Assembly (NCBI GenBank): GCA_011316305.1
Contig: SAUG01000017.1
Span: 62,001 to 126,000, forward strand
Length of the DNA stretch: 64,000 nt
Source: Rusavskia elegans
Taxonomy: Eukaryota > Ascomycota > Lecanoromycetes > Teloschistales > Teloschistaceae
Direction: 5' to 3'
Below, piece by piece: positions 30,615 to 38,046 of the stretch. Under the pieces are notes generated by a model. That model saw only the letters and a list, made by a program, of their open reading frames with translations, did not search any database and was not told the origin of the DNA. How positions within the stretch are numbered: the first letter of the stretch is position 1; every line of letters begins with the position of its first letter. The position numbers and the translations under genes are program-made.

Positions 30615-31748
30615 ATGGACGTCGCCGCCAGCATCGTCGCTCTCATTCAAGCCGCCCACAAGCTGTACGAGTATGCAAATGAAGTGGTCCATGCCAGAGA
30701 AGAGCAGAAAACTATCCTTGCTGCACTCCAGGGCATTGTAGATGTTCTCGACGCCATCAAAGACCGAGAGGCTCTTGCCAGTCAGAATCCGAATGACAGA
30801 TGGTATCAAGGCCTCCTCGCGCTCAACACCTCCGCCACCCCAACTACCAATGGCAAAACACTTGTCCCGGATCCTGCTCGGAAGGGTGACGGCGCTCTAG
30901 TCCGCTTAAAGAAAGCTTTTGGTCTCCTCGAACTTGAATTAAAGCCAAAACATGGTTGTGCTGGCTTCCGCCAGCGTTGGGCCTGGACACACAATGAGAA
31001 AAAGATCAAGGACCTCGTCACCCAACTGGACCAGCTCAAAGGCCATATCGACTCGGTGCTGCAGCAAGATCACTTCCATCTGTCCGTCGCCATGCAAACA
31101 ACTGACCTCGATACCAATCAGCGCCTTCAAGACGTGCAGCAGACTAATGCTGCCGTCAAGAATAATGTTGAGGGTCTGAAATCCAGGGGTGCAGATGCAG
31201 TCAACCGTCTCCAGGAACTGCAGGCTCAAAGTGCTGACCATGCTACTCGAGTGGGTGATGTGGCCAACCACACGACAGCCATTCGGATCACCACAGAAGA
31301 TACCCATGCGCGTATCAAACGCTTGGAAGCCGCCGGTGCATTGAAGGAGCAGCGAGAAGAGCGCAGGGCTATCATTGAATGGCTTTCACCTCTCCAGTTC
31401 CTGCGGCGTCAATCTGACATCTTCAACGGTAAGATTCTCTTGGGTGAGAAACTCCTGGATTCGGATGAATTCAAAGCGTGGTTCGAGGGTCGTCCTTGGA
31501 TTCTCTTTGGGTATGGCATGCCGGGCTCGGGTATAACCGTCCTCTCGTCCATAGTAGTGGACCGGTTGCGGAAAAGTCTGAAGCCCGCTGGTGTGCCCGT
31601 GCTTTGCATGTATTTGAATTACAAAGAACGAATTCAAACCCTTCCAAATCTGATTGGGAATCTACTCAAGCAACTGATCCAACTCGAGGATGATAATTTT
31701 CGATCGCCACAGGTGCAGAAACCCTTTCGCGAAATTATAGAAATCTAG
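30615..31748 (+). pseudogene. N-terminal half of a NACHT-ankyrin STAND (NLR-type) gene, truncated
   Basis: Fungal NLR-like proteins act in non-self recognition and regulated cell death. Here 377 residues remain. An N-terminal helical domain starts with MDVAASIVALIQAAHKLYEY and runs to about residue 150 (GHIDSVLQQDHFHLS). A coiled-coil-like linker follows (about 160-255), then the pre-NACHT segment IIEWLSPLQFLRRQSDIF, and the start of the NTPase: ILFGYGMPGSGITVLSSIVV. The Walker A lysine is replaced by Ile (GSGIT instead of GxGKT), which should abolish ATP binding. About 60 residues later the frame ends in REIIEI-stop, where family members continue with Walker B, winged-helix and further domains. 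The matching ankyrin half begins at 32912. The gene therefore looks interrupted by, or recombined with, the nuclease gene between. Whether the fragment is still expressed is unknown. Confidence 0.8.
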
Positions 31749-31895
31749 TAGTTTACTGTTGTATTCTACCAATTGGCGCTAGGCCAAATTCCGCTCAACT
31801 GAGGAACTTAGTAACTTACGTCACAGGTTGGTAGGCTAGCCCCACATCCACCATTTCTCATTTTTCAAAGCCCAACTGCTCCGTACATCTCAACC

Positions 31896-32921
31896 ATGAG
31901 TGGCCAGAAGAGAAAGCGAAGCGTGAATCTTGAAGACTTAAAAACCTTCTTTAAGTCTGACCCTATAGATCACAAAAAAGCTTGGGAAGACTTAAGAGAC
32001 CGGGTACTACAGATTGACCGAAGTATCCAAGCACCTGTGCAGACGGTAAGCCCTAAACTCCCTATTATATAGCAAGATTAATCGGTATAGCTTGCTCCCT
32101 CTTCTCTGTCTCTTCCGGAAGCAGAAGAGATCTTCTCCTTAACTGAGATAGACGATATTCTTTGGGCCGAAGACTCGTCTATCGATATTCCAGCATATCT
32201 CCTAGAAGCTATTGATAGGATTATTACGATAACCTCCCCTATTAACCGTTGTAATGAGGCCTATAGTAGGACGGTAATTGACCAGATTGTCATTTCCGCA
32301 CTATATGAAGAAAACCAGTCAACTCTATCCGTAAAAGAAAAGGAGAAGTCACCCTCAGAACCTGCAAAATTAGAACTTCAGCATAAAGTCCAATTTTCTA
32401 AGCAGGTAACCCTTCGGGGTCAGCCTCGCATGCTTAACGGGTTCTGCGACTATACCATCTTTTACGAGCCACGCACTCAGTCGGCTTTAGCTACTAATAT
32501 TATCATTGTCGAGGCCAAAAAAGCATATACTACAGATACCTGCCTCGGACAGTTAGCCGCTTATATGGGCGTTGTACATACGTCCAGAAAAGAAGAAAAT
32601 CGAGAGAACAGAGTTGTTTACGGTGTCGCTTCTGATGGGCTCTCGTTCCGGTTCCTTCGTATCGACAACGAATCGAACATTACTCGAAGCCGTCTTTTAG
32701 AATGGCACCTTGACTCTGCCCAAATATACTCTATCTTCAGGCAGCTGATCAGGCTTGCGGCCCTCCAATCACCATCTTCTTCCCCTATTAAAGATCCGGG
32801 AAAAAGAGCAAGAGTGGTAGCTTCGTTCGGAAGCCCGGAAAGGGCAAGACACTTCCTCTACGATCTCAACACCCTCAATTTGATAGAGGAAGACGAAGAG
32901 ACAGAGGTTGTTAGCCTATGA
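31896..32921 (+). CDS. PD-(D/E)XK nuclease-like protein lodged inside a broken NLR gene
   Basis: Two exons, 31896-32045 and 32091-32921, are separated by a 45-nt intron (GTAAGC...GGTATAG, phase 0) and give 326 aa. The N-terminus is basic (MSGQKRKRSVN, possible nuclear signal) and followed by helices. The nuclease core is read as NGFCDYTIFY (Asp), then IIIVEAKKAY (the E-x-K) and CLGQLAAYMG (the Gln helix), the order of the PD-(D/E)XK superfamily. The C-terminus is a helical tail ending in acidic EEDEETEVV. The gene has its own short upstream region (31749-31895) and looks intact, unlike the NLR halves on both sides. Its stop codon TGA lies in the sequence that also encodes the resumed NLR frame (AYDYPEF). 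Base composition is more AT-rich than in the flanks. DNA cleavage is an inference from the motif; no substrate can be assigned. Confidence 0.8.
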
Positions 32922-35010
32922 TTACCCAGAATTCTCTGTTCCTTGTGAAGGACTTCGAGAGGATGAAGAGTTCGAAAAGCGCAAGGCCAAACATCATTTC
33001 CTTCAATACGCATGTTCAGTCTGGGGAAACCATGCTAGCGATGCAGGTCAAACAGAGGAGGTACATAGGGAGGTCACTGAATACCTCGAAGATACTGGTA
33101 AGGTTGCTGCATTCATACAAGCAGCCTGGTACGTTACTTCCGAGGGCCTTGAGAACTGGGATATCCGCAAGGGCGCTAATGGATTACATATCGCAGCCTG
33201 GTTCGGATTGACGGAGGTACTTCGCTCGCTGCTTGAACGCGGTCTGGATGTCAACGCCCAAGACCCAGCTGGTGGTCAGACGCCACTGATCCTGGCAAGT
33301 CGTAGGGGTCATGCCTCGACAACTACTTTACTGCTTGACCGGGGTGCTACTGTCAATACGCGCAATAATGCAGAGAGTACAGCAATGTTCGAGGCGGTCA
33401 TTGGCAACCATGCAGAAGTCGTAGCTGTCTTGCTAAGCAAGCCCGAGCTTAACGTCAATGAGGAGCATCTTCACAACGCTGAGCGGACACCTTTGATGTT
33501 TGCTGTTAAAGATGAATATGCTGAGATAGTCTCCCAGCTTCTTGAAGATCCGCGTACCGAGGTTAACAAGAGAGACCTCGACGGTTGCACGGCCCTCATT
33601 TTTGCTGCGAAGGCTGGTTCGTTCATTTCGATTGGATACCTGCTCGAACACGCCACTATTGACTTGGATGCCACTGATCGCACTGGGAACTCCGCGCTTA
33701 TGCATGCGGCAAAAAGGGACCACCATCAGATTGTCAGCCGATTAATCGACGCTGGGGCGAATCCGTCTATAAAGGACCAAGATGGTGGCACAGCGCTTCT
33801 GAGGGCAATCGACGAAGGAAATACTGCAATCTTTGAGATTATGCTCGATCACGACAGCGTCGATGACTCGATTCGTGACAATTTTGGTCGCACCCTTCTC
33901 CACGGTGCAGCTACCACCGGTCGTGCTGACATTGTGAAGTTGCTCATAAGCAAGGGGCTTGATAAAGACGCCCAAGATAGCAAAGGCAAAACACCGCTGC
34001 ACGAAGCAAGTCGGTCTGGGGAAGCGGAAGTTGTGGCCCTGCTCTTGGCCGCTGGTGCCGATAGAGCCATCAAGGACCACTGGTACCGATTTCCATGGGA
34101 TGTAGCATGGACAAATCGACAAGCTAGAATCATGCTCCTGCTCGAAAACAAACCAGCAGATGATGCTTCAGCTCAAGCATTACTCGCCAACTATCCAAAC
34201 ATCGACAACCTACCCATTTGGTCTCTAGCCATATTCGGACAGATCGACATCCTCAACACAGCCATCAAAACCCGTCGAGCATCACTGTTCCACCTCGACC
34301 CCGACACCGACAACACCGCCCTCCACTCCGCCGTCCTCGCCAATGAACCCTTGATCCTTCAAGCACTCCTCTCCGCCGGCCTCTCCCCCAACGCCCAAAA
34401 CATGCAATCACGCACCCCCCTCCACCTCGCCACTACCTTCAACTTCCTAAATTGCACCCAGGTCCTCCTCGCCTCGACTCCATTACCAGACCTCAACATC
34501 CGCGACGAATTTCACCAAACACCCCTCCTGATCGCGCAAATCAAACGCCACTACGACATCGCTTTCGCCCTCATCGAAGCAGGCGCACATATCGATCCCG
34601 AAATCATCCAGGTACAACCCTTATTTTTCCTGGCAGTCGAATTCGGCAAAGCGAAAGCGGTAGTGAGATTGATTGATGCGGGCGCAATGGTAGGGACGAA
34701 GAACTTGGCCGGGAAAACAGCGTGGCGGATCGCGAGGGAGGTGGAGGGGATAGAGGAGGAGATGGGGGAGGTGTTGAGGGTGTTGAGGGCAAATAAGAGT
34801 CGGATGGTTGTGGGACCCGAAGCTAGTGATGTGACCAACGTGAATGGTGAAGTGGAAGAGGAAGATGAGAGGAAATTCCAGATGTCGGCGTTTAGAAGGA
34901 CGGATATATTCGATGAGGTTGGGGACGGTGAGAAGATTGGGGGTATTGAAAACGTAGAGCAGCACCAAGGAGAGCAGATGTCGACGAAGCGAGTGGCCGT
35001 TCTGCCCTGA
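32912..35010 (+). pseudogene. Ankyrin-repeat half of the broken NACHT-ankyrin gene
   Basis: This is an open frame of about 700 codons without its own convincing ATG at the start; it opens at the nuclease junction. The first 90 residues (YDYPEFSVPCEG, HHFLQYACSVWGNHA) are the segment that in NACHT-ankyrin proteins links the NTPase/winged-helix part to the repeats. From about residue 90 there are roughly 13 ankyrin repeats, many with the consensus TPLHxA (for example KTPLHEASRSGEAEVVALLL, NTALHSAVLANEP, RTPLHLATTFNFL). One repeat near 34090 is degenerate (WYRFPWDVAWTNRQAR). The last 90 residues are an acidic, low-complexity tail. Repeats of this kind are the recognition part of fungal NLRs. The coding frame is intact over 2.1 kb, so decay is recent or the half is still selected, possibly from an internal Met. 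Confidence 0.8.
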
Positions 35011-36087: not shown

Positions 36088-38046
36088 CTATACAAGCTCA
36101 CCAGCACTCACAGTACTTATTCGCCCGCGAATCTCGTCGATACCATATTGGAGGCCGTATCCGGGCTCAGCATCCGGAATCCACACAATTTCCTCTTCGT
36201 GGAAACCTTTCTTCACATAGCTGCTCATCTCAGAACTCGTGGCTAGTAGCTTCACAACACATTTTGCCCTCCCGACAACCTTGATCAACTTGCTCATTGC
36301 ATGGCACATTCCTGTCACTCTGTCCTCTGTTTCGTAAAAGGAAACTCCATCCACTACCAGTACAACGATTGCTTTGGGCGGCAGCTGATATAGAAGGCCT
36401 TCGAACACAGCACAGAGCGCATCCATGGCAGCATTTAGAATGCCCCCAAAAAGAGCGTGGTCTACGAAATCCAAGGAAAAACTCTGATACCGAGGCGCAA
36501 GAAGCAGCTGCAGGATCAGGTTTTGCAGCATGCCCTCTGCATTCGGAAGGGCATCGTGATATCGATCCGTGTGGAGGCCGCATGCATAGTGCAGTGGTAG
36601 CGCTGTTCTCCACAACTGTGATGTCTGGATCAGGAGACTTGATACCAAGGAGAGTGCCGATATTGATCCATCATCAGAAGAATCACCTTTTGCGAAAAGG
36701 CGGCGGGATTCGGCAGAAGTAAGCCACTCATGAAACTTCTGATTTTCAATGAACAGGCTAGCCTGTGCTTGACGGCTGACGGAGAAGGACATGCTTTCCT
36801 GGAGGATCCACTGCAAATCTTGTGCAACAGTCATAGGGCTTGCTGCTAGCGCATGGATAAGTTGCAAAGATGACGGACCTTTGCTACTGACGGGCTCGGG
36901 GGGAATCGCTCGACATGTTCTCTCCAACTTCTTGTTGACTTGCGAGTAGTATCGCGCGATGCCCTCTCGCTCTCGTGTATCCTTCCCTTTTCGCCTTGTC
37001 TGACCTTCATTCCCCTCGTGCTTAAGAAACGCGTACATACTGTTGAGGATGTTTTGAAGTTCTCTATCGGATTTTATGCCCTCTGTGGCTAGTTTTATGA
37101 GCTCTGCGTTTTGCCAGGTTAGGTAGTCCTGTTTGGATTCTATCTTGGACGTCAGACGTTGGTGACAACGTTGTTCTTCTTGCTTGACTGCTTTGGCAGA
37201 ATTTCTGACAGCCTCGATACCAAGCTCGATCTCCATGCCATAATTCGGGCCTTTAGCTATCGCTTTGGCCGCCTTCAATATTTTCTTATAAAACCGCCCG
37301 GGAGATCGGTCTTTGTAAAATTGCAGGATACGGCGAAGACATTGGGAGATGCTCCGATACAAGCCAGCAATCCGCAGGTCCAGCTCCTCGGATTCATATT
37401 GGTCGTCGGAAAATTTGGCTGCCATGACCGCTTCGGGAATCGCTGCTAGTGCATCTAGGACTTTATCACACAATTCGCGGTGTCGTACAGCAGCGTTGAT
37501 GACGAGTTTGAAACCACCACAGACGATACTGCCATAGGCGTCATCGGGAAGCATTTCGAGCCAGCCGGTAAATGCCTTCCCAGAATTACCGAGCTTTTGC
37601 GCACACTTCTCAATAGCTCCTGGAATCCCCTCGGTACCCTGGTTGTCGATGGATCGCTTGGCTTTCCGGATTTCGTCCATCACAGCTTCCCAGTCCCACT
37701 CCGACATAATGCCCATATGTGCATGGGCATGATCTTTGTCTTGCTCATTGTACGCTTTCATTGAAGCAAGCAATATGTCCCTTTCTTCTAGGGCAGCTTT
37801 GTATGCACAGTCACTGTGTTATGTCAGCAAGAGGCAGCTTTGCCAGCATCGGAAGAATCACCGTTGGAAACGTTTTCTATCTCGAAAAGTGTCCACTTTT
37901 GAGTCGAACGTCACGTTTGGAACTGGTAGAGCAGGATGAAAGTCCTCGCCCAAGCTTCCCACAAATTCTGCTGCGGGGTTCGGATGCTCTACGGTCGCAG
38001 TAGAGGTATCTGGCATGTCGTTCATCTTTCCGAAGTAATCTGCCAT
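36088..38046 (-). CDS. DUF7708-type STAND-like protein (probable NLR relative)
   Basis: Two exons, 38046-37862 and 37813-36088, with a 48-nt phase-2 intron (GTGATT donor, GCTGAC branch, ACACAG acceptor), give 636 aa. The region WLEMLPDDAYGSIVCGGFKL to KVLDALAAIPEAVMAAKF fits DUF7708, a helical domain found at the N-terminus of fungal NACHT/STAND proteins. The second half resembles a degenerate NTPase: a Walker-B-like strand AIVVLVVDGVSFYE and the later CVVKLLATSSE, where sensor-type text is expected, but no Walker A is visible. No repeat domain follows; the frame ends at SAGELV. It may be a shortened family member, or the model may be missing a 3' exon. An alternative upstream in-frame start exists at 38196. 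The neighbours are the broken NACHT-ankyrin gene and an AAA+ ATPase, suggesting a STAND-rich island. Confidence 0.75.

Follow-up and report, generated by a model that had tools for sequence, protein, structure and literature searches.

How did an intact gene for a nuclease-like protein come to lie inside a broken NOD-like receptor (NLR) gene in Rusavskia elegans? Both are found in a stretch of 64,000 nucleotides (contig SAUG01000017.1 of assembly GCA_011316305.1, positions 62,001 to 126,000 of the forward strand), which we call the window and whose positions are used below. We find that the nuclease gene is carried by an inserted unit of 1194 bp that took the place of about 1040 bp of the NLR gene, and that a second full copy of this unit, with the same two ends, is present elsewhere in the genome. 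The insert could be a compact mobile nuclease gene that is pasted into chromosomal breaks, most likely ones that its own nuclease makes or promotes; we favor this reading tentatively and rate it a little below an even chance. The following features define the locus.

31734..32927 (+): inserted unit, which has the same two ends as the copy on contig C72
31734..31895 (+): upstream part of the unit, presumed promoter, partly conserved in the C72 copy
31896..32045 (+): nuclease exon 1, 150 bp, which matches the N-terminus of the relative P0001
32046..32090 (+): intron, 45 nt, GTAAGC...TAG, present in the C72 copy too
32091..32921 (+): nuclease exon 2, 831 bp, with the PD-(D/E)XK core
32448-32450 (D170), 32511-32513 (E191), 32517-32519 (K193) and 32550-32552 (Q204) (+): catalytic codons in exon 2
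30615..31733 (+): N-terminal part of the NLR gene, with a SesA-like start (below the Pfam cut-off), a coiled coil and the first part of an NPHP3_N (NACHT-like) NTPase
31533..31535 (+): P-loop (Walker A) codon, lysine in relatives (GSGKT) and isoleucine in the window (GSGIT)
32928..35010 (+): C-terminal part of the NLR gene, with ankyrin repeats and a frame open to 35010

Two separate comparisons give the same borders for the insert. When the window region is aligned with the C72 copy, the match spans 31734 to 32927, and nothing outside it is significant. The uninterrupted NLR relatives P0051, P0052 and P0054 continue beyond the FR(E/D) that the window reaches at 31733, and the window rejoins them at E(F/L)S, at 32928/32929. 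A further relative, P0055, which was used for the right junction only, is 95.8% identical to the window NLR over 479 columns, and its NLR sequence is unbroken across that junction. Residues 1-14 of P0055 differ from the other relatives and stand directly before a well-conserved stretch; the NLR gene there may be damaged upstream.

These junctions refine a preliminary description of the locus, which had been made from the letters of the window. Its intact two-exon nuclease gene at 31896-32921, encoding 326 amino acids, is reproduced by our gene model, and its proposal of a replacement rather than a clean insertion is borne out by the whole NLR relatives and by the further complete copy, whose ends are the same. 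The N-terminal NLR half was said to stop at 31748, and a frame is indeed open from the ATG at 30615 to that point, but the NLR sequence itself ends at 31733 (..FRE) and the last codons, IIEI-stop, are part of the insert. The ankyrin half was placed from about 32912, so that the nuclease stop codon would overlap it. It resumes instead at 32928/32929 (..EFSVPCEGL), the bases up to 32927 being common to the C72 copy, and the stop codon (32919-32921) falls inside the insert, 6 bp from its right edge. The estimate of about 400 missing NLR residues is lowered to 347, 348 and 348, counted against P0051, P0052 and P0054, respectively (three of seven NLR relatives; the right-hand anchor pattern failed to match in the other four).

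The unit, with the ends ATTATA...TTACCC, is made up of ~160 bp of upstream DNA, the two-exon gene and 6 bp past the stop, and an open-frame survey of the window revealed no second gene within it. Comparisons of the ends of the two full copies detected neither a target duplication nor repeats in the flanks. The unit ends bear no direct or inverted repeat beyond short chance-like matches, and the best left/right inverted match of the unit is 7 bp and internal.

Is the gene found elsewhere in the genome? We searched the assembly (44.16 Mb, 217 contigs) for further copies, with match counts that are lower bounds. A 1401-bp nuclease query yields three dispersed DNA matches, whereas three neighboring stretches used as a control (2083, 1731 and 1792 bp; 5606 bp in total) match themselves only. 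The three matches and one older relic are as follows.

C72:32717-33938 (-): second full copy, 83% DNA identity, intron and both ends shared
C156:30151-30206: short piece of 56 bp with sharp ends; where C72 differs from it, C72 carries C>T/G>A changes in 4 of 4 cases
C25:112392-112488: short piece of 97 bp with sharp ends; where C72 differs from it, C72 carries C>T/G>A changes in 7 of 10 cases
C156:47056-47274: older relic, 49% at the amino acid level

The C72 copy, which adjoins a SURF4 gene, is 78% identical in amino acids to the window nuclease over exon 2 and has been destroyed by mutation resembling repeat-induced point mutation (RIP). Read in the window's frame it contains nine stops, seven of which arose through C>T or G>A. 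Its differences from the window copy are biased in the same direction (C>T 43 versus T>C 19; G>A 25 versus A>G 23), with 24 of the 43 C>T changes at CpA and 13 of the 25 G>A changes at TpG, and the RIP index, TA/AT minus (CA+TG)/(AC+GT), stands at 0.87 for the C72 unit, as against about -0.7 for its flanks. The 56-bp and 97-bp pieces, which lie at two unrelated sites, are largely in a pre-RIP state, so that their source was a C72-like gene that had not yet been damaged. Because a weak further match is found ~0.9 kb from the C25 piece (score 37, versus a shuffled maximum of 32), that site may hold a decayed larger copy instead of a short piece. The presence of the intron in both full copies indicates that copying went via DNA. 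Dispersal as DNA, whole to at least one other site and in part to others, is well supported.

The preliminary description had asked whether homologues in other genomes also lie inside NLR or other conserved genes. Within this genome we saw no preference for NLR genes: the C72 copy has a SURF4 gene as its neighbor, and when 86 NLR/ankyrin proteins were compared with the DNA surrounding the other four copies or pieces, no match reached E<=1e-4. The DNA compared was 16 kb for C72, 10 and 3 kb for the two sites on C156 and 10 kb for C25. Targeting of NLR genes was accordingly rejected.

The protein encoded by the unit appears to be of PD-(D/E)XK type, as was originally suggested, and is predicted to have nuclease activity. 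The PADLOC PD_DExK profile matches 18 of the 18 family members given, with an E value of 3.4e-12 for the window protein. Its motif layout, D..EAK..QxxxY, follows the order of catalytic residues in the PD-(D/E)XK superfamily, and over 58 aligned rows D170 is conserved in 58, E191 in 55, K193 in 55 and Q204 in 56. The family is without a Pfam model: the 326-aa query has no Pfam match at E<=1, whether to a kinase, a WHO/HO-type domain or any other, and family-level matches too weak to be used were 0.043 for the best in Pfam, 0.013 in NCBIfam, 0.033 in PHROGs and one at 0.74 in PDB by sequence.

We found 61 relatives, and the 12 that are named are all from lichen fungi or Leotiomycetes. The closest named relative, P0001, is from Xanthoria sp. 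2 (Teloschistaceae) and is 89% identical. Searches for prokaryotic relatives gave 18 pattern matches over 84,980 bacterial and archaeal genomes, 0 of them confirmed, and searches for viral relatives gave 26 pattern matches, again with 0 confirmed (best E in a viral fold library 1.9e-3). In a free tree Fulgogasparrea and Letrouitia are set apart from the Xanthoria group, but we do not claim horizontal transfer, because a tree that holds the Teloschistales rows together has the higher likelihood (p-AU 0.57, 0.63).

Differences between the two full copies also bear on whether the protein works. Among coding differences towards C72 of the C>T/G>A class, 20 of 59 are synonymous, as expected without selection (0.331), whereas in the T>C/A>G class the fraction is 21 of 34 (0.343 expected, p 0.0016); for transversions it is 10 of 42 (0.174 expected, p 0.31). 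The stronger argument for a working protein, compared with these substitution classes, is that its relatives have kept the catalytic residues. The intact window unit itself contains RIP-like dinucleotides (index 0.19, versus -0.62 for the whole window), and its G+C content at third codon positions is low, at 0.443, when set beside the 0.555 and 0.558 of the two parts of the NLR gene. This composition could reflect either mild past RIP or a different origin.

When was the NLR gene broken? In P0051, the replaced stretch takes in the final 62 residues of NPHP3_N (domain 276-435) as well as the winged helix (620-695). Missing from the window NLR are the end of the NTPase domain and also the P-loop lysine codon, yet both halves are open frames. 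The N-terminal half has changed at 10 of 167 columns that are invariant among relatives, and six relatives have changed at 3-12 of 170-179 such columns; the C-terminal half has changed at 8 of 198, the same as the close relative P0055. Accelerated decay was therefore rejected, since no excess of change is apparent apart from the P-loop lysine. Under neutrality, the two halves together would be expected to have acquired 1.0 nonsense mutations at 1% divergence, 3.1 at 3% and 5.2 at 5%, and we observe none. This lack of stops makes a recent break probable, unless the halves have kept a use.

The two full copies, by comparison, differ by 56 transversions. Together with the stop-free NLR halves, this divergence implies that the two copies had probably separated before the insertion into the NLR gene took place, and that C72 is unlikely to have been its direct and recent donor. 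That both ends recur in two insertions of unequal age suggests that they may be the unit's own. A pattern for the 3' end has 12 matches in the genome versus 10 in a control, and is exact in the two full copies only. The 5' end pattern has 322 matches versus 40 in a reversed control, but at the 13 loci inspected, out of 320 other matches, the DNA is RIP-like and rich in AT (GC 15-29%), and no similarity was seen to continue beyond the pattern; the excess was taken as compositional, and a family of terminal repeats was rejected. No marked hairpin was found at the ends (best z -1.6) in a folded set that represents the C72 copy by its 3' end (with one sequence from the minus strand).

The favored reading, a mobile nuclease gene, would work as follows. 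DNA of the unit would be copied into chromosomal double-strand breaks during repair, and at this locus it would have been pasted in as ~1 kb of the NLR gene was lost, breaking the receptor gene. The nuclease itself most likely makes or promotes the breaks, its own gene serving as the patch, as the WHO10 genes of yeasts seem to do. A patch of the whole gene would yield a new active copy and a partial patch a short fragment, after which RIP-like mutation would destroy surplus copies. Break-induced repair, put forward in the preliminary description, is a plausible route of insertion. The lack of a target duplication and of an inverted terminal repeat makes the event look like the patching of a break, not the work of a transposase. 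Self-made breaks, copying by repair and ends of the unit's own are, like the nuclease activity, inferred.

Several points weigh against this account. Only two full copies are known, and their shared ends were compared within this one genome. If the donor had been an allele of the C72 site in another individual, the shared ends would be explained equally well. Informative sites split 3:3:3 over how the window copy, C72 and P0001 are related. The control for dispersal is small, at three stretches, and is read against counts that are lower bounds. Selection on the window copy is seen in one class of changes (T>C/A>G).

The main rival is passive capture, which we regard as rather unlikely. According to this explanation, an ordinary nuclease gene was used by chance as filler in break repair, so that the enzyme was not involved and the ends are not the unit's own. 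The sharply bounded 56- and 97-bp pieces do resemble filler DNA, and chance filling would also account for the ~1 kb lost at the target and for the absence of target duplications and terminal repeats. However, one gene was dispersed repeatedly, with three DNA matches and one older relic, versus zero for the three neighboring stretches, and the two full copies have the same ends, one of which is only 6 bp past the stop.

Common ends in two full copies are what would be expected if the unit were non-autonomous cargo, moved by the enzyme of some transposon that recognizes them. We consider this improbable. Terminal inverted repeats and target site duplications, which are the marks of cut-and-paste DNA transposons, were both absent from the end comparisons. 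Moreover, the 3' end is exact in two copies only, and the loose 5' matches are AT-rich and RIP-like at the 13 other loci inspected.

It is also quite improbable that the gene is a killer or toxin-type nuclease, similar in effect to the Spok genes, that is kept by drive and moves as a by-product. The PD-(D/E)XK domain of Spok has a QxxxY motif according to the available part of the source (PMC6660238), the window protein has D..EAK..QxxxY, and relatives of the nuclease are patchily distributed. Against this, the 326-aa protein has no Pfam domain, and hence no kinase or resistance domain was recognized, and the unit has no second gene. Finally, the earlier idea of a captured conflict module is not supported, and it is very improbable that the nuclease became part of the receptor locus, as one spliced product or as a system paired with the ankyrin half. 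In favor of such a role, each NLR half has kept an open frame and the C-terminal half is without excess change (8/198 invariant columns, as P0055). Against it, the ankyrin frame is offset from that of the nuclease, which has its own start and stop. The best in-frame splice candidates have donor scores of 3.6 and 2.7 versus 7.9 for the gene's own intron and neither has a branch site, so that no convincing nuclease-ankyrin splice was found. The same unit lies on C72 without an NLR gene, and the NLR has lost its NTPase end and P-loop lysine codon.

As for the wider context of the broken gene, its best relatives include proteins of the lichen fungi Calogaya, Xanthocarpia, Polycauliona and Gallowayella. 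No close NLR paralogue was found in the genome, where the next best match to the N-terminal half is 39% identical. A DUF7708 gene (36088-37815, minus strand, E 3.3e-12, open over 575 aa) lies ~1.1 kb from the broken NLR.

Endonucleases of the intein-derived WHO/HO type are LAGLIDADG enzymes. Among known systems the closest in behavior is WHO10 of Torulaspora globosa, which belongs to the mobile endonuclease genes of the WHO/HO family (PMC7282813, here and below as far as the available part of that paper describes them). In both cases a nuclease gene is present at several unlinked sites, with copies 72-80% identical in amino acids there (PMC7282813) and 78% over exon 2 here, host genes are interrupted without flanking homology, relics are found, and distribution is restricted and patchy (PMC7282813). 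In the window, the unit replaces ~1.04 kb of the NLR gene with no repeat in the flanks, and the other sites are unrelated. The proteins, however, are not related: WHO proteins are intein-zinc finger fusions (PMC7282813), whereas the window protein is of the PD-(D/E)XK type. WHO10 inserts are 2.8-6.6 kb long, with a fragment of FBA1 in 5 of 5 (PMC7282813); we saw no host gene fragment in the window insert, which measures 1.2 kb and differs further in that ~1 kb of the target was lost.

The Spok killers of Podospora are likewise fungal selfish genes with a PD-(D/E)XK domain and QxxxY (PMC6660238, PMC9972908, in the parts available). Their proteins also contain a kinase domain that confers resistance, together with a coiled coil and a cysteine cluster, and the catalytic residues K240 and Q294 of SPOK3 are 54 residues apart (PMC6660238, PMC9972908), whereas the window protein is a nuclease alone, with K193 and Q204 only 11 apart. 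The N-terminal nuclease domains of the restriction enzymes BpuSI and DrdV and an HsdR fragment are also among the closest known proteins, but the window protein has no recognition, methylase or helicase domain that we could find. We recognized no paper that describes the nuclease family or the insert in a literature search whose scope excluded preprints and most subscription journals. It is possible, though on the doubtful side, that the unit represents an undescribed class: a free-standing fungal PD-(D/E)XK gene, reduced to its promoter and coding sequence and possessing its own ends, whose nuclease makes breaks into which the gene is copied, so that whole genes and short scars are left behind, with RIP as the host countermeasure.

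The locus illustrates one route by which a fungal NLR gene can be lost. It also constitutes a small and testable system, with one intact gene, a RIP-damaged copy, dated fragments and whole NLR genes in relatives. The authors of the WHO10 study state, in the part available, that the route by which these genes enter their sites is not clear (PMC7282813), and how such genes enter sites without flanking homology, a question left open there, could be tested here. Should the favored reading hold, the intein-derived WHO/HO family would not be the only source of free-standing mobile endonuclease genes in the nuclei of fungi, and a PD-(D/E)XK nuclease would have followed a similar path.

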